Positions 3,119 to 11,210 of a DNA stretch of 32,896 bases are shown here, piece after piece. A program made the position numbers and the translations under genes. The notes beneath the pieces were generated by a model. The model saw nothing but the letters and a program-made list of their open reading frames with translations, made no database searches and was not told the origin of the DNA. The stretch comes from a virus: positions 1 through 32,896 of the IMG/VR virus record IMGVR_UViG_3300022413_000030. One strand, 5' to 3'. Within the stretch, counting starts at the first letter, position 1. Each line of letters begins with the position of its first letter.

Positions 3119-3138
3119 GGGCCAGCGCTCCTTAACGC

Positions 3139-3180
3139 AAAAAAGAACCCCCCGAGCCGTCGAAGTGGCTCGGGGGGTTC
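3139..3180 (-). terminator. Intrinsic terminator of the leftward late transcript
   Basis: A perfect 14-bp GC-rich stem (3145-3158 with 3167-3180, arms GAACCCCCCGAGCC / GGCTCGGGGGGTTC) encloses an 8-base loop. Six A residues at 3139-3144 become a U-tract immediately after the hairpin on the minus-strand transcript, so it is well formed for leftward transcription. On the plus strand the hairpin is followed by TAGCCCC, not a T-run, so it should be weak for the rightward early operon. It separates the recombination operon from the lysis genes. Confidence 0.85.
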
Positions 3181-3258
3181 TAGCCCCAACAATCTCTGCA
3201 CCTTGAAGTCGGGAAGGCGGAAACGAAAACCTCCCCGGCCGCTACGGCAGCCTAGCAC

Positions 3259-3657
3259 ATGGCGTTAGCCCCGGCGCAACGAATGATTGCGTGGTGGCTG
3301 CAAAACACGGATAAATGTGCGCTTGGGGGGGGAAGGGGCCTGGGCTTCTACCACAAAATGAAAGAGCGCATCATGCACGTGGAGGCGAAAGCGGCCGCGC
3401 TGCTGCGGTCTTCCGTGATACCGCAGGCAGATCGGCGCGTGCTGTACGAGCTGATCAGGGCCCTCGAGGAAGCGCGCGGCCTGCTCGACGACTGGCGCTA
3501 CGATACGTTCATCAGCTCGTCGCTACACCCGCGACCGCGCTCGACTACCCCGCAGCCACGAAACCGCATGCGATCCGGGACACGTCGCCTTGGCGTGCCC
3601 GTCTCCGAGCCGGTCGGCTTCAAAGTGCCCGAAGACGAGGGGGATGAGCCCGAGTAG
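3259..3657 (+). CDS. Rightward ORF overlapping the endolysin in antisense, unknown function
   Basis: This 132-residue frame fills most of the 400-bp gap between the early operon and the endolysin stop. The first 90 residues look like a natural soluble protein (RMIAWWLQNTDKC, GGGRGLGFYHKMKERI, ADRRVLYELIRALEEARGLL). The last 45 residues, where it overlaps the endolysin on the other strand by 135 bp, are low-complexity and may be shadow sequence. No good ribosome site precedes ATG 3259. The leftward late mRNA should extend to the terminator at 3139 and so be antisense to it. I cannot identify a family. Alternatives are a chance ORF or a gene with a downstream start such as 3358. Confidence 0.42.
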   Translation: MALAPAQRMIAWWLQNTDKCALGGGRGLGFYHKMKERIMHVEAKAAALLRSSVIPQADRRVLYELIRALEEARGLLDDWRYDTFISSSLHPRPRSTTPQPRNRMRSGTRRLGVPVSEPVGFKVPEDEGDEPE

Positions 3658-4101
3658 CCGCCGCTCGTTATACGAGACGAGCTGGGGCAAGCACCGGAGC
3701 TGATGATCGCTCAGCGGATATTTGCTGGTGTTGCCCTGCAAACAAATCGCAATGCCGCGCGTGTTCGGTCCGCGTCCGCCGTGGTAAGCGCGCGTCGTAT
3801 CGGCGTTGACCCGATAGATGACGCGCCGGCCTTCGACAAAGGTATCCGCGTGCGGGATCCAAAAGTGGTACCCGATCCCGGGCCAGCCTCGATGACGCAC
3901 ACAATAGCGCGCCGAATGGTAGACGCCCGCAAACCCGGGCGCCCCGAGGCGCCCCGAATGGTGCAAGTATTGCTCAGTGACCTTGATGCGCTTTGCGTAG
4001 CGCTTGGTCGGGTGACGCGGCAACGCAGCGGTCACGTCCCAGAGCGCGACATCGCCGCCGAGCTCCGCTTCGAATGTCGATCGCTTAGGTAACGCGGCCA
4101 T
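3523..4101 (-). CDS. N-acetylmuramoyl-L-alanine amidase endolysin (Amidase_2/PGRP fold)
   Basis: Predicted zinc amidase that cuts the MurNAc-L-Ala bond of peptidoglycan at lysis. From ATG 4101 it is 192 residues. This start follows the end of the upstream gene (17-bp overlap), and a longer frame to 4317 would read through that gene. Zinc ligands typical of T7-lysozyme-like amidases are visible: the first His in YLHHSG (about 45), a later His in RAYHGGRG, and the Cys of KATCPG near the C-terminus. GYHFWIP and TRGIAICLQGN match strands of this fold. There is no signal peptide, so a holin would be needed for export. It is the last gene of the late operon. Confidence 0.87.
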   Translation of the reverse strand: MAALPKRSTFEAELGGDVALWDVTAALPRHPTKRYAKRIKVTEQYLHHSGRLGAPGFAGVYHSARYCVRHRGWPGIGYHFWIPHADTFVEGRRVIYRVNADTTRAYHGGRGPNTRGIAICLQGNTSKYPLSDHQLRCLPQLVSYNERRLLGLIPLVFGHFEADRLGDGHAKATCPGSHAVSWLRGSRARSRV

Positions 4102-4609
4102 CACTTGACGCCCGGTGGCGCTCCAACCAGCTCTGCCCTTTGCCGTAATGCCAGGTTTGCGCGTATGCGCTCCGCTCCCGCTCACTCCCGCGGTAGCCGT
4201 TCGGGTGGGCGTTGCGTAGCACAGCGGCCGACACGATATCGAAGATCGGCCAAAGGATGCTCGACCCCCACACGATCGCGAACGCCGGCCAGCCCCCCCA
4301 AATACTCGCAAGCCCACCCGCGATCACGCCGCTGAAGCAACTGTCTTGATGTTGACGGATATGGATGCGTTCATGCTGGCGGAGCTTCTCACAATACACG
4401 GCCGGATGCCCGACGACATAACCCACGGCCGTCGCGTAGGGCCAGCGCCGGAGCCACCACGCGCGCCACTGCAGCATGATGGCGCCGCGGTCCCAGCGGA
4501 TCTTTTTCCAGGTCCAAGGGCCAAACACGAAAAGGAAAAACAGTGCGCCCCCGATCCACATCGGCAGCGTGACCACCGCAAGCAAGCAAGCGCGAATGTA
4601 AAAAAGCAC
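4085..4609 (-). CDS. Membrane protein with HExxH zincin-like motif, lysis region
   Basis: This 174-residue protein starts at GTG 4609, five bases from the upstream stop, with a run of six G as ribosome site. Two hydrophobic segments at the N-terminus (LLAVVTLPMWIGGALFFLFVF) and centre (GVIAGGLASIWGGWPAFAIVW, SILWPIFDIVSAAVL) suggest an integral membrane protein. Between them, QHERIHIRQHQD contains HERIH, which fits the HExxH zinc-protease signature. A later SERERSAYAQ could supply a third, Glu, ligand. Similar HERIHVRQ strings occur in uncharacterised bacterial membrane proteins. The neighbours are spanin-like genes and the endolysin, so a lysis-related role is possible. Peptidase activity is speculative. 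Confidence 0.7.
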   Translation of the reverse strand: MLFYIRACLLAVVTLPMWIGGALFFLFVFGPWTWKKIRWDRGAIMLQWRAWWLRRWPYATAVGYVVGHPAVYCEKLRQHERIHIRQHQDSCFSGVIAGGLASIWGGWPAFAIVWGSSILWPIFDIVSAAVLRNAHPNGYRGSERERSAYAQTWHYGKGQSWLERHRASSDGRVT

Positions 4610-4611
4610 GA

Positions 4612-5103
4612 CTACCCCCCGCTAAACCCGAAAGCCAAGCTCGTCGCTAGCACCCCCATTAAGACTCCGCCGGCAATGCCCCACAGCAGCCCGCCGCGTT
4701 TCTTGCGCCGCGCCTCTCGCTGCAGGGCGCGGTTGCGCTGCTCGCTCAGGCTTAGCGCTACGGCTTGCGCGGTCATCGATTCGTCGTAGTGGTCGATCGC
4801 CTGCTCGTAAGCGACGATCCGTTCATGCTCAACGGCGAGCGTCTCTTCAAGCAATGAGATCCGGCGCCGGTCCGCGTGCAACTCTTCAAGGTCGCTCGCG
4901 ATGCAGGCTGCGACCTCCGGATGAAACCACAGGCCGAGCTTCTGATCGTGCGCCAAGATAGCCCGCCGCGCGGAGCGCTCAATATTGGGGGCGCACTTTT
5001 GGGCCATCGCCCTAGTACCCGAGAGCGTCAAAGCGCTGATCAAGCTCAGCCACATCAGAGAGGTCGCCGCGCGTTTCGCGTATCTTCTCGATCTGCTCTG
5101 CAT
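4612..5103 (-). CDS. Exported coiled-coil protein with C-terminal membrane anchor (spanin-partner candidate)
   Basis: The frame is open from 5151. ATG 5103 is preferred because it gives a textbook signal peptide (basic SRRYAKR, hydrophobic LMWLSLISALTL, then TRAMA before QK) and has AAGG about 10 nt upstream. ATG 5007, four bases after the upstream stop, is the alternative and would lack the signal. From 5103 the product is 163 residues: signal peptide, central coiled coil (SLLEETLAVEHERIVAYEQA and later SLSEQRNRALQRE), basic RRKKR, and a hydrophobic tail. The 5' end is embedded in the +1 frame of the Rz-like gene, as Rz1 is in lambda. No lipobox Cys is present, so it is not a classical Rz1 lipoprotein. 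Confidence 0.7.
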   Translation of the reverse strand: MQSRSRRYAKRAATSLMWLSLISALTLSGTRAMAQKCAPNIERSARRAILAHDQKLGLWFHPEVAACIASDLEELHADRRRISLLEETLAVEHERIVAYEQAIDHYDESMTAQAVALSLSEQRNRALQREARRKKRGGLLWGIAGGVLMGVLATSLAFGFSGG

Positions 5104-5344
5104 TCGTGCGCAGCCTTTCCTTGAGACCGATGCTGCTCTTTGAGAGCGCACGAGCCTCCCTGAGAATCGCGTCCCCCTCGGACCGCTCCTGCATGGCGCG
5201 CTCCTTTTGCTGTTCGATCACCTTCACGGCTTCGGCGTCCTTTCGGCCTTGGTCATAGGCCCGGTGTACGGCAAAGTAGATGCAGACGACGATCACCCCG
5301 ATCGTCAATACGATAGCAAGCACCGCGCCGCCCGATAGCTTCAC
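5012..5344 (-). CDS. Rz-like inner-membrane spanin candidate
   Basis: This 110-residue protein starts at GTG 5344, overlapping the diguanylate cyclase stop as GTGA. Topology is i-spanin-like: an N-terminal membrane span (VLAIVLTIGVIVVCIYFAVH, about 8-27) followed by a long charged coiled coil (about 34-100). Spanins link inner and outer membranes in the last step of lysis of Gram-negative hosts. Its 3' end contains the start of the next gene in another frame, a hallmark of Rz/Rz1 pairs. Assignment rests on topology and context, not on sequence motifs, since spanins are highly diverse. Confidence 0.6.
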   Translation of the reverse strand: MKLSGGAVLAIVLTIGVIVVCIYFAVHRAYDQGRKDAEAVKVIEQQKERAMQERSEGDAILREARALSKSSIGLKERLRTNAEQIEKIRETRGDLSDVAELDQRFDALGY

Positions 5345-6318
5345 CGGCTGGCCACTCCCTTTGGAACGATGCTCTCCGGACTGATTAGCCTGTTCTTGCC
5401 GAGCGATTTACCCTCGAGCAAAAGCGGCGCCGCGGCCTTGATCACTTCTTCGAGCGTTGCGCACTTGCGCTCGGGCTCTCGCGAAAGCCGGACGAGCGCC
5501 GCGCTGCAGCTGATATCCACCGTGTGATCTTGAAACTCAAAGCTCCTCGAAACCCCGGCCCGAAGACGTCCCAAAACGATCTCGGCTTCGCGCCGGTTTC
5601 GGCACGTTACGATCGCGATGAACTCGTCCCCACCCACGCGCCCGCATTCATCGGTGATGCGAAGCGCGCCCCGCATGCGTAGCGCCGTTTGCTCGAGCAC
5701 CTCATCGCCTACCGCATGGCCGTGTTGGCTGTTGACTTCTTTGAAGTTGTCTAGATCGATGAACGCCGCATAGGTTTTGGTGGCGCCTTCAGACCGATCC
5801 GAATGGGCAATCGCCTTTTGAATCGCCGTCTCTAGCCCTCGGCGGTTGAGTAGATTGGTAAGCGGGTCGCGGACGTTTTGCTCTTCGAGCTTTTGCGCCA
5901 TCTTCATGATCTCGGTCACGTCGATAGCTACCCCGAACATGCGGCAGTCCCCTTCGCCGCACCGCACCTGCCCCTTGGCCCGGGTCCAAACCCAGTGCCC
6001 GCGCTTGTGCCGAAAGCGCACCGTCACGTCGTATGGCGTATGGTTTTTGTGGGCGGCTACGGCTTCGTCGACGGCTTTGTGCCAGTCGTCGGGATGGCAG
6101 ATCGCTTTCCAGAACCGCGTCCCCTGCGGAACCTCGGAGACCGAATAGCCAAACGTTTCGATGAAGGCATTGGTCACCCACGCATCGCCGTCGTCCTGCA
6201 TGTCCCAGATCCAAACGCCGTTGAACGCGGTATCAAAAAACTCTAACAGCTGCTCGCTGACGAGCGTCTTCAGTTCAATCTCAAACGGATGGGGCCCTTC
6301 GTATTGTCCGCTGGTCAT
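5341..6318 (-). CDS. PAS-GGDEF diguanylate cyclase, phage-encoded
   Basis: Predicted enzyme joining two GTP into cyclic di-GMP. ATG 6318 (325 aa) is chosen because it overlaps the upstream stop as ATGA with GGAGG upstream. Residues about 20-135 form a PAS/PAC domain (GVWIWDM, HPDDW, VTVRFRHKRGHWVW, FGVAIDVTE). A short helix leads to the catalytic domain: DPLTNLLNRRGLE (about 151-163), FIDLDNFKEVNSQHGHAVGD with metal-binding Asp 188, and GGDEF at 229-233. RITD at 220-223 lies exactly five residues before GGDEF, the spacing of the allosteric RxxD inhibitory site. The C-terminal part is more divergent (GKSLGKNR for the usual AKxxGRNR). No membrane span. Domain identity is firm; activity and role are inferred. 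It sits inside the lysis-end operon, coupled at both ends. Confidence 0.92.
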   Translation of the reverse strand: MTSGQYEGPHPFEIELKTLVSEQLLEFFDTAFNGVWIWDMQDDGDAWVTNAFIETFGYSVSEVPQGTRFWKAICHPDDWHKAVDEAVAAHKNHTPYDVTVRFRHKRGHWVWTRAKGQVRCGEGDCRMFGVAIDVTEIMKMAQKLEEQNVRDPLTNLLNRRGLETAIQKAIAHSDRSEGATKTYAAFIDLDNFKEVNSQHGHAVGDEVLEQTALRMRGALRITDECGRVGGDEFIAIVTCRNRREAEIVLGRLRAGVSRSFEFQDHTVDISCSAALVRLSREPERKCATLEEVIKAAAPLLLEGKSLGKNRLISPESIVPKGVASR

Positions 6319-6671
6319 CTGCGCCGCTGCCTCCACCGCTCTAGCGACCGTAGCCGCTGCTCCTGGTCCGCCTGCTGTTCATCGTAGCGACGCAGACGGT
6401 CCGTTGACAAGTCGTGCGCGGGATTGAGCTTGTGCGTATCAAGCAAGCGCTCTTGGGCGTCTAGGCGTGCGTCGTTGTGTTCGTATGCCTGATAAGCGCA
6501 GTTACCGGCCCACCCGAACCCACCCGAGAGCGCGGTCAAGATCGCGGCGACGATCCGGATCTGTTTTCTCGTGTCGCGATTTTCCGATACCTCCCGCTCA
6601 ATGCGGTTGAGTCTGTCGCTCAGCCGCTCGCTTACGCGCAGGCTATCGGGGCGGTCGCTCGGGCGGCTCAC
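6315..6671 (-). CDS. Coiled-coil/membrane-span protein upstream of the cyclase (possible holin-type)
   Basis: This 118-residue protein starts at GTG 6671 and overlaps the upstream gene by 29 bp. Layout is an N-terminal charged helix (LSDRLNRIEREVSENRDTRK), one hydrophobic segment (IRIVAAILTALSGGFGWAG, about 38-56), and a second long charged helix to the C-terminus ending in RRR. The helix-then-span N-terminal half resembles XhlA-like haemolysin/holin-associated proteins, but the extra C-terminal helix does not fit that family well. Its stop overlaps the cyclase ATG, so the two are probably translated together. Function is uncertain. Confidence 0.62.
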   Translation of the reverse strand: MSRPSDRPDSLRVSERLSDRLNRIEREVSENRDTRKQIRIVAAILTALSGGFGWAGNCAYQAYEHNDARLDAQERLLDTHKLNPAHDLSTDRLRRYDEQQADQEQRLRSLERWRQRRR

Positions 6672-9184: not shown

Positions 9185-10137
9185 TAGGCTTGCTCACCAA
9201 ACACAAAGACGTTGAGCCGCGCCGAAACCGCGGAGAGGACGACCTCGGTGCTGGTGCTCGACGTCCAACAGGTAATCAGGAACGACGCGCTGCTTAACGT
9301 ATTCACGCTGAACACCATGCTTACACCGGCCGCGGCGGCGTCGGTTTGCGTGCACTGAACAAAGAAGTCCGTATCGGTCATCGCGTTGTCCATCACCACG
9401 GTGATCGTTCCGTTGGTGTCGTTGCTGCTGGTTGCGCTAGCGAGCCCAAACGAATTGCCCGAAATGGTGGCCGTCGTGCTTCCCGTGGTCGTCACGATAT
9501 TGCCGCCTGCCTTGGGAATCGCTTGGCTGATGAGCTGATTCTTGCTGATCGTAGCCGGATTGAGGACCCCGTTCAGCCTGACGGTGTCGCCAAATACTCC
9601 TGCCGCCAAGTTGCTGCTCATCTGCACCTCGGGGCCGTTTGCGTCGCTAGCAATGAGCGTCATGAGGCCCTCGCTTATGCCGAGCGAATCCCACTGTGTC
9701 GTGCCCTGATTCCATTCCGCATTGAAGGCGACCGAAAGCCCGGCCGGCTCGGTGTAGACGTTGACAAAGTTCCCCGTGATCGCCGCGGCTTTGAGCCAGT
9801 GCGTCCGGGAATCGGTTGTGGCGTTCGTGTCAGTAATACGCGGCGAGTCTCCCGCAAAGGCTGCGCCAAAGGGGATCGCAATGTCCATCTCGTTGCTCGT
9901 GCCGCTCCGGCGCAAGTAGAGGATCTCGAGCCCATCGAGCACCTGCGTAAAGTCGAGCGCCGCGGGCGTGAGGCCGGCCGTCTCGATGATGTTGAGCAGT
10001 TCTTCCTGCACGCCGTCAAACCACTCCTCCTGCCCAATAGTGCCGGAGTTGGGGTCGGTCGGGTCGCCGTTCGTCCAGCCGTCTTTGCCGGCCCCGAATT
10101 TGTTTTGCTCCGCAGTCGGGTCGTCGATTCTATCCAT
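9184..10137 (-). CDS. Tail-fibre-like protein between gp47 and gp48 homologues
   Basis: This 317-residue protein has GAGGCAAGCA before ATG 10137. The N-terminal 95 residues contain a pattern common at phage fibre N-termini (EEWFDGVQEELLNIIETAGLTP, FTQVLDGLEILYLRR). The remainder is Thr/Ser/Asn/Ala-rich and beta-prone, as in trimeric fibre shafts or tips. In Mu, gp47 and gp48 are adjacent, so a fibre gene here is an insertion relative to the standard order. Assigned by composition and location; a neck or collar fibre is an alternative. Confidence 0.65.
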   Translation of the reverse strand: MDRIDDPTAEQNKFGAGKDGWTNGDPTDPNSGTIGQEEWFDGVQEELLNIIETAGLTPAALDFTQVLDGLEILYLRRSGTSNEMDIAIPFGAAFAGDSPRITDTNATTDSRTHWLKAAAITGNFVNVYTEPAGLSVAFNAEWNQGTTQWDSLGISEGLMTLIASDANGPEVQMSSNLAAGVFGDTVRLNGVLNPATISKNQLISQAIPKAGGNIVTTTGSTTATISGNSFGLASATSSNDTNGTITVVMDNAMTDTDFFVQCTQTDAAAAGVSMVFSVNTLSSASFLITCWTSSTSTEVVLSAVSARLNVFVFGEQA

Positions 10138-10145
10138 TGCTTGCC

Positions 10146-11210
10146 TCAGACGTAAATGTGAGTGAAACTCGTAAACATTCCATATTGACCGGGGTCCTGA
10201 TCGATTGTCGGCGAAGAGAGGCTCACCGACGTCACGCCAGACGCGCTTTGCGCCGCGTTTTCAATATCGGGCTGCCGGAGCACGAGCTCGGGCTCGCCAG
10301 ACGTGAGGATCCAATCCTCAACCGCCATTTCGAGCGAGTTGCGGACCGGGGTGGTATCCGGGATCAAGCCGGACCAAGTGAGCGTTAGCGGTTGCGGGGT
10401 CGGCCCTATGACCGGCGCCCCGCCCATCATGATGGGCCGCTTCGCGTCGACATTCGCCTGCGCCGCCGCAATCGTCGCGGCGCCGGGTACCGGGCCAGAT
10501 ACATCGTCGACGATCACGATCGTCACAAAGCTCGGAGACGGTTCGTTCGGAAACTCAAAGGCGCGCGACACCGCCGCCGTCTCCAATGCCCAGGCCGCAA
10601 AGTCGCCCGCGCTGCCCCCACGCGGCGGCGTCTTCATACGGGCGCGGAGCCGATTGAATACACCGACGCTCGTCTCGGCGTCCGCCCCGCCCGATAGGCC
10701 GCCCGTGGCTACGGTTGCCTCGGAATCGATCCCGACGATCGGCGTTGACAAAAACACCGCCGCGCCCGCCAACGTGTTGCCGCTCAGCCCCGCCGCGGTA
10801 GCCGTTACGGCTACGGTCACATCGCCCCCGCCCCCAATGTTCACGGAGCTGTCGGTCGTAAAGGTAATGCCGTCGCGGTTTCCGATCTCGGTGCCCGCCG
10901 GGATATTAGTGCTTGGCGTCCCCGTAAAGGTGACGTTTCCGGTGGCCGCGCTCGCGACGACTTGCGGAGGCGTGAGGAAGATATCCGCCCACCGCAGCAA
11001 CGTGTCGAGGTCGCTTTCCTCGCTTGGGATTACCTGCTTTTGCAGGTAGTTCAGATAGCCGTAGACCCCGTGTGTCATTCCGGGGACGACGAAGCTGTAG
11101 ATATTCTCGACGGACCGCCGGAGCACCGCGTCTCCCGATGTGGTGCGCGCTAAAAAGTCCTGCTGAAAGCGGTCGCGTAGCGTCTGCAATGTCGGTCGAT
11201 CAAATGGCAC
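10146..11210 (-). CDS. Baseplate J-like wedge protein (Mu gp47 type)
   Basis: This 354-residue protein starts at GTG 11210 behind a G7 ribosome site. It matches the Baseplate_J family: FDRPTLQTLRDRFQQDF at the start, SDLDTLLRWADIFL (about 66-79), a beta-rich centre with GTEIGNRDGITFTT, and GLSGGADAETSVGVFNRLRARMKTPPRGGSAGDFAAWAL (about 199-237), the most conserved stretch of the family. These proteins form the baseplate wedge and initiate sheath contraction. It follows gp46-type and precedes gp48-type genes, as in Mu apart from one inserted fibre gene. Confidence 0.9.
   Translation of the reverse strand: MPFDRPTLQTLRDRFQQDFLARTTSGDAVLRRSVENIYSFVVPGMTHGVYGYLNYLQKQVIPSEESDLDTLLRWADIFLTPPQVVASAATGNVTFTGTPSTNIPAGTEIGNRDGITFTTDSSVNIGGGGDVTVAVTATAAGLSGNTLAGAAVFLSTPIVGIDSEATVATGGLSGGADAETSVGVFNRLRARMKTPPRGGSAGDFAAWALETAAVSRAFEFPNEPSPSFVTIVIVDDVSGPVPGAATIAAAQANVDAKRPIMMGGAPVIGPTPQPLTLTWSGLIPDTTPVRNSLEMAVEDWILTSGEPELVLRQPDIENAAQSASGVTSVSLSSPTIDQDPGQYGMFTSFTHIYV

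Follow-up and report, generated by a model that had tools for sequence, protein, structure and literature searches.

Accounts of phage lysis name holins, endolysins and spanins, and the last of these include the u-spanins, which combine an N-terminal export signal with a C-terminal transmembrane (TM) segment. In the phage-lysis literature, covered in part and mostly without its subscription papers, no lysis operon is reported to include a membrane metallopeptidase as a conserved component; with this coverage, it is weak evidence of absence. The words protease and peptidase are absent from the main text of a spanin survey (PMC6139136), and the metalloprotease mentioned in a lysis-cassette paper is a filament-forming M66 protein that is not described there as a component of the cassette. 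Mtz, a phage-derived metzincin of Listeria, is reported to cleave its genetic partner Tim and to raise the sensitivity to phage lysis (PMC8235301). The protein described here is likewise proposed to be a metalloprotease of phage origin. Mtz, however, is a secreted metzincin, from another zincin class, with a Gram-positive host and another partner (PMC8235301). With BlaR1 and MecR1 (family M56), membrane gluzincins having a cytosolic HExxH...E site, and with HtpX, Ste24 and BepA (family M48), which have the same HExxH...E order, the resemblance lies in the predicted architecture.

The window, that is the whole stretch of DNA analysed, is one entire IMG/VR virus record of 32,896 bases. Its minus strand carries a contractile-tail gene set (sheath, tape measure, hub and baseplate); relatives of the hub protein occur in SfV, KS10 and similar phages. 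The plus strand carries RecE/RecT/SSB genes. At 3130-3190, where these recombination genes give way to the lysis genes of the minus strand, an inverted repeat with a long C/G arm was noticed by eye and is a possible terminator. The final minus-strand genes encode, in the order of transcription, a PAS-GGDEF protein, the coiled-coil proteins cc1 and cc2, a membrane protein with an HExxH motif, and an Amidase_2 endolysin (Table 1).

Table 1. Coordinates of the final minus-strand genes of the window and of the predicted site residues
Feature	Position	Strand	Remarks
PAS-GGDEF protein	5341..6336	-	PF00990 E 1.6e-27, PF08447 E 1e-16; same run, 5' of cc1
cc1: N-terminal TM and coiled coil	5012..5344	-	weakly Rz-like, i-spanin candidate
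cc2: signal peptide, GxW motif, coiled coil, C-terminal TM	4612..5151	-	start uncertain within 5082-5151
HExxH membrane protein	4085..4609	-	174 aa, GTG start; predicted membrane gluzincin-type metallopeptidase
HERIH codons, H79-E-R-I-H83	4361..4375	-	predicted zinc ligands H79, H83; predicted general base E80; invariant in 19/19 rows
Glu145 codon in SERERSAYAQ (residues 142-151)	4175..4177	-	predicted third zinc ligand; invariant in 19/19 rows
Amidase_2 endolysin	3523..4101	-	likely ATG at 4101; longest ORF 3523-4317

The open reading frame of the HExxH protein is a real gene. A GGGGGG stretch lies 6-11 nt 5' of its GTG, which follows the stop codon of cc2 after a gap of 2 nt, and the likely ATG of the endolysin is located inside its 3' end, with an overlap of 17 nt. 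These overlaps and abutments suggest that cc2, the HExxH gene and the endolysin gene form a single late lysis unit. The endolysin matches PF01510 (E 1.2e-9) and the endolysin family phrog_1493 (E 1.3e-9). Compared with two-component spanins (PMC6139136), cc1 weakly resembles an Rz i-spanin; its match to the Rz-like spanin family phrog_4297 is weak (E 0.026), and the cc1 of a homologous viral locus, L129, has an Rz-like PHROG match at E 0.0013. The window's cc2 resembles the u-spanins in its N-terminal export signal and C-terminal TM; no lipobox was recognised in it by eye, and no Pfam or PHROG family matched it better than chance. The PAS-GGDEF gene overlaps cc1 by 4 nt and is not seen in the conserved module described below; its VGGDEF motif is intact, and a putative diguanylate cyclase in a phage late or lysis run would be unusual if expressed at lysis.

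Relatives of the HExxH protein were difficult to retrieve. Taken alone, the window protein detected none by tblastn against 50,697 phage records at E<=1, nor among viral and genome contigs in a related-locus search; it had no match in Pfam, NCBIfam or the sequences of solved structures, and a single chance-level row in PHROG (E 0.32). No relatives of the window endolysin taken alone were found in viral contigs, and the cc2 proteins of the window, L123 and L124 (the same records as L128 and L129) had no match in phage records. A degenerate pattern around HExxH[x]RQ retrieved two viral homologues, and the alignment of these three sequences led to 19 viral loci, 18 of them distinct. The aligned set comprises the window protein and 18 viral homologues, L143 being left out as near-identical to L142. 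A first bacterial-type pattern returned nothing from viral contigs but gave at least 120 stretches in bacterial genomes. A complete open reading frame with the motif was missing in 4 of the 122 loci listed (120 bacterial, 2 viral), and 116 bacterial proteins were examined.

HExxH occurs three times in the 37,783 aa of the window's stop-to-stop segments of at least 60 aa, so that the motif by itself is weak evidence. In shuffled copies of the window protein, it arose in 150 of 20,000, and together with a spaced ExxA in 13 of 20,000. The conservation of the motif, on which the original prediction depended, is a stronger argument. Indeed, at 26-34% identity to the window protein, the 18 homologues retain both HExxH and the distant Glu, and thirteen residues are invariant across the 19 rows (H79, E80, H83, Q86, D89, Y139, E143, E145, A148, Y149, A150, Q151 and W161), with HExxHxxQxxD and ExExxAYAQ present in each. 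This conservation is not an artefact of the search, because rows that lack a search motif still keep both sites: the first search motif is unmatched in 11 of the 19 rows and the second in 2, and 13 rows match just one of the two. Being conserved across diverged homologues, HERIH stands above chance and, as judged from the sequences, is not a chance motif.

The phage proteins have counterparts in bacteria, among Planctomycetota, Burkholderiales and others, where membrane proteins of the type GHVILG...HExVHVRQYExWGP...NPFExEAY are encoded. Using the bacterial proteins from the matches listed, the phage and bacterial profiles aligned in hhalign at 98.7% (E 3.3e-16, 133 columns), and masking the HExxH segment in both lowered this to 95.8% (E 6.6e-9); five column-shuffled profiles gave at most 0.6% and a reversed profile 3.1%. 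By profile comparison, the phage proteins are thus homologous to a large unnamed bacterial family, beyond the motif. The homology is full-length and the two groups share the order N-terminal TM, strands, HExxH helix and Glu helix. The presence of HExxH in all 116 bacterial proteins among the matches listed follows from the construction of the search pattern, and in 115 of these 116 an FExxA or YExxA lies exactly 26 residues past the motif. The bacterial members are about 135 aa long, whereas in the phage members the membrane hairpin that separates HExxH from the Glu is longer and the chain, unlike theirs, ends in ExExxAYAQT...W. Neither family received a name from Pfam or NCBIfam at the curated cut-offs; the sub-threshold rows were weak for Pfam, a single meaningless one for NCBIfam, and for PHROG a weak 'protease' (phrog_15610) and unknown families. 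The neighbourhoods of the bacterial homologues are not conserved, the largest shared cluster covering 6 of the 116 among the matches listed, and they give no functional hint.

The AF2 model of the window protein, computed from the alignment of 19 (pLDDT 88.2, pTM 0.78), comprises helices 2-13 and 15-29, strands 34-40, 43-48, 60-62 and 65-68, a helix 74-105 carrying HExxH, a helix 107-131, and a helix 143-152 carrying Glu145. A zincin site had been anticipated, and this predicted layout follows the order given for the core of zincin-like metallopeptidases (helix, strands, HExxH helix, helix, Glu helix) in PMC5512222. The model of a bacterial member, built with 40 sequences out of the 116 proteins among the matches listed, has a pLDDT of 96.1. 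With Foldseek, neither model had a PDB match at E<=0.001, and among predicted viral proteins four uncharacterised phage proteins were returned at E 0.006-0.03 (probability 0.93-1.00), none of them at E<=0.001. Structural realignment (VIA) gave low Z values throughout (at most 3.6 with both models), too low to carry the claim alone. For the window model, BlaR1 occupies ranks 1-3 among 146 chains, with Z of 3.6, 3.2 and 3.1 over 109-112 residues; for the bacterial model, 8 of 212 chains reach Z>=2 (2.1-2.7), namely BlaR1 three times, BepA, aminopeptidase N, ERAP1 twice and EryP. All eight are gluzincin metallopeptidases.

The third ligand can be approached from the same alignments. Those of the bacterial model end 8 residues past the third zinc ligands of ERAP1 (376), aminopeptidase N (411) and BepA (201). 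In the BlaR1 rows, residue 134 of the bacterial model lies opposite BlaR1 250, placing E126 on E242 if this end is ungapped, and E242 is the zinc ligand reported for BlaR1 (PMC9834060). Glu145, already suspected as a ligand within SERERSAYAQ, aligns with the Glu of the bacterial FExxA, whose model end-aligns in this manner on the third ligand of BlaR1. This supports the suspected ligand, and Glu145 is the predicted third one. We infer that H79, H83 and E145 would hold zinc and that E80 would activate water. The membrane metallopeptidase of the original prediction is therefore upheld by invariant motifs, homology and model layout, with zinc binding and catalysis as predicted properties.

The filing of this protein under M48 or M56 was rejected. 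The window protein had no Pfam match to PF05569 (M56) or PF01435 (M48), and in hhalign the phage profile scored 11.5% against eight M56 sequences and 0.9% against twelve M48 sequences, all trimmed around HExxH, though M48 and M56 were linked to each other at 98.0%; the bacterial family scored 3.4% against M48. BlaR1 provides the top VIA rows for both models, but at Z of just 2.3-3.6, and the window protein differs from BlaR1/MecR1 by the absence of a beta-lactam sensor domain and by ExxxY instead of ExxxD. Similarly, BepA takes second place for the bacterial model, but the M48 enzymes show no sequence relation in the hhalign test. No match to eCIS_core/DUF4157 (PF13699) was found in the window protein; the HExxH regions of L125, L131, L133, L136 and L003 match it below threshold (13.6-18.8 bits against a cut-off of 22).

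As originally described, HERIH (residues 79-83) is flanked by hydrophobic stretches, at about 9-31 and 91-131. Segment 32-78, after the first of these, is net positive in 18 of the 19 rows and 0 in one; in the same rows, a hydrophobic hairpin comes after the motif and the C-terminal part has no consistent charge. According to the positive-inside rule, positively charged segments face the cytosol, and both catalytic helices would therefore lie at the cytosolic face. The active site is thus predicted to face the cytosol, as in BlaR1, and not the periplasm. The protein would be a small zinc metallopeptidase of the inner membrane, gluzincin in type, belonging to an uncharacterised family common to bacteria and tailed phages. 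Its N-terminal hydrophobic segment would serve as an anchor, followed by two beta hairpins leading to the helix with H79-E80-x-x-H83, then by the membrane hairpin (about 91-131) and the helix with Glu145.

The gene context was investigated in the 19 homologous viral loci with HMMs of cc1 and cc2, derived from the window and some of the loci and run over all reading frames. cc2 was recognised in nine loci (L125, L126, L128, L129, L130, L134, L135, L139 and L141; E <= 1.1e-10), four of which were not HMM seeds, and cc1 in eight (E < 1e-5), excluding a match of about 1e-4 on the opposite strand in L133. In eight of the nine cc2-positive loci, no more than about 20 nt separate the end of cc2 from the start of the HExxH gene, as in the window. 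One or both genes of the Rz-like pair stand beside the HExxH gene in 9 of the 19 loci. The placement in a lysis cassette is thus supported for the window and for roughly half of the homologous loci. Proximity to other endolysins, proposed as a check, varied among the loci: the Amidase_2 search was positive in 4 of 19 records, and the gene follows the HExxH gene directly in L134 and at a distance of about 0.8 kb in L139, but is about 21 kb away in the near-identical L142 and L143; L135, missed by this search, has an Amidase_2 gene overlapping the start of cc2. Reverse scans recovered the HExxH gene in 4/4 records found from cc1 and 6/6 found from cc2, most of which had seeded the queries, a single one being independent (the L139 record, in the cc2 scan).

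Several of these loci present additional features. In L139, a single open frame at 9822-11093 (+), after the amidase gene, contains cc1-like and cc2-like stretches and is possibly a fusion of the pair. A conserved membrane protein of 114-134 aa (HWPF..., holin-like, no Pfam family at cut-off) is encoded 5' of cc1-cc2-HExxH in L125, L126 and L134. Similar-looking signal-peptide proteins with no Pfam or PHROG match are found 3' of the HExxH gene in L135 (8510-9088) and L136 (1250-1960), and may represent a second envelope enzyme.

A recognised cc2 neighbour is absent in 10 of the 19 loci. In L131, L132 and L137, the HExxH gene lies between a DNA methylase-like gene and the gene of a large tail-sheath-like protein, and in L127 it lies among tail genes, these names resulting from sequence reading; it is located elsewhere, without the cc1-cc2 module, in L138, L140, L142 and L143, and the upstream end of L136 is cut. 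In L131, L132 and L137 (records of 133-392 kb), the tail-sheath-like protein of ~1157 aa lies further on, and the HExxH homologues have their own insert before YRDSEHERSAYAQT. These ten loci, together with the bacterial homologues devoid of conserved neighbourhood, indicate that the enzyme does not need cc1/cc2.

On this basis, the protein is probably a membrane gluzincin-type metallopeptidase made late with the lysis genes. It would be produced with the endolysin, directly after the Rz-like pair (cc1, TM-coiled coil; cc2, signal peptide-coiled coil-C-terminal TM), and its likeliest job would be a timed cut in a membrane protein during lysis, at or near the cytosolic face. An action on host envelope proteins or on spanin-like partners had been suggested, and both are possible; the conserved adjacent Rz-like pair favours the processing of a partner, but the predicted site is cytosolic and not periplasmic. 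The recurrent gapless cc2-HExxH gene order designates the membrane anchor of cc2 (or cc1) as the first candidate substrate, a tentative choice. The C-terminal TM of cc2 has 1-6 residues beyond its most hydrophobic 19-residue stretch. The second candidate substrate is a host inner-membrane protein.

This host target is a serious rival, since the HExxH gene also occurs away from the cc1/cc2 pair. The protein would then be a membrane metallopeptidase cutting an inner-membrane or cytosolic host protein, for takeover, quality control or defence evasion, and its position among lysis genes would reflect late expression only. The homologues located off the lysis genes (L131, L132, L137, and L127 between tail genes), the bacterial relatives standing alone and the predicted cytosolic site all point in this direction. 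The exact abutment to cc2 in 8 of the 19 loci and the window argues against it, as do the reverse scans, even if these returned mostly query seeds, and a host-directed function is possible but less likely than not. A degenerate or moonlighting zincin, keeping fold and zinc site as a binder or a zinc-dependent scaffold (e.g. for the spanin-like pair) without proteolysis, could account for the additional invariants Q86, D89 and W161, to which no role is assigned; it is improbable given an HExxH whose Glu is invariant in all phage rows, the motif being also present, by search-pattern construction, in the 116 bacterial proteins among the matches listed. A holin- or antiholin-like protein with a structural, non-catalytic HExxH, suggested by three hydrophobic segments, the adjoining endolysin and the lack of another obvious holin identified in the window's cassette, was rejected as very unlikely, in view of a general-base Glu, two His and a distant Glu invariant at 26-34% identity, this last Glu being kept in the bacterial family as well, and of the separate holin-like gene upstream of the pair in L125, L126 and L134.

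Returning to the processing of a lysis partner, its most specific form has a dedicated inner-membrane gluzincin severing the anchor of a spanin-like pair. Proteolysis, and not the loss of peptidoglycan only, would then release the disruption of the outer membrane, through a cc1-cc2-protease module conserved in diverse tailed phages. This scenario is speculative and rather unlikely as a whole. A membrane metallopeptidase as a conserved element of lysis operons, if confirmed, would introduce a regulated cleavage step into phage lysis, might help to account for lysis where phages have no recognisable spanins, and would provide a first function for the membrane zincins of a widespread, unnamed bacterial family.
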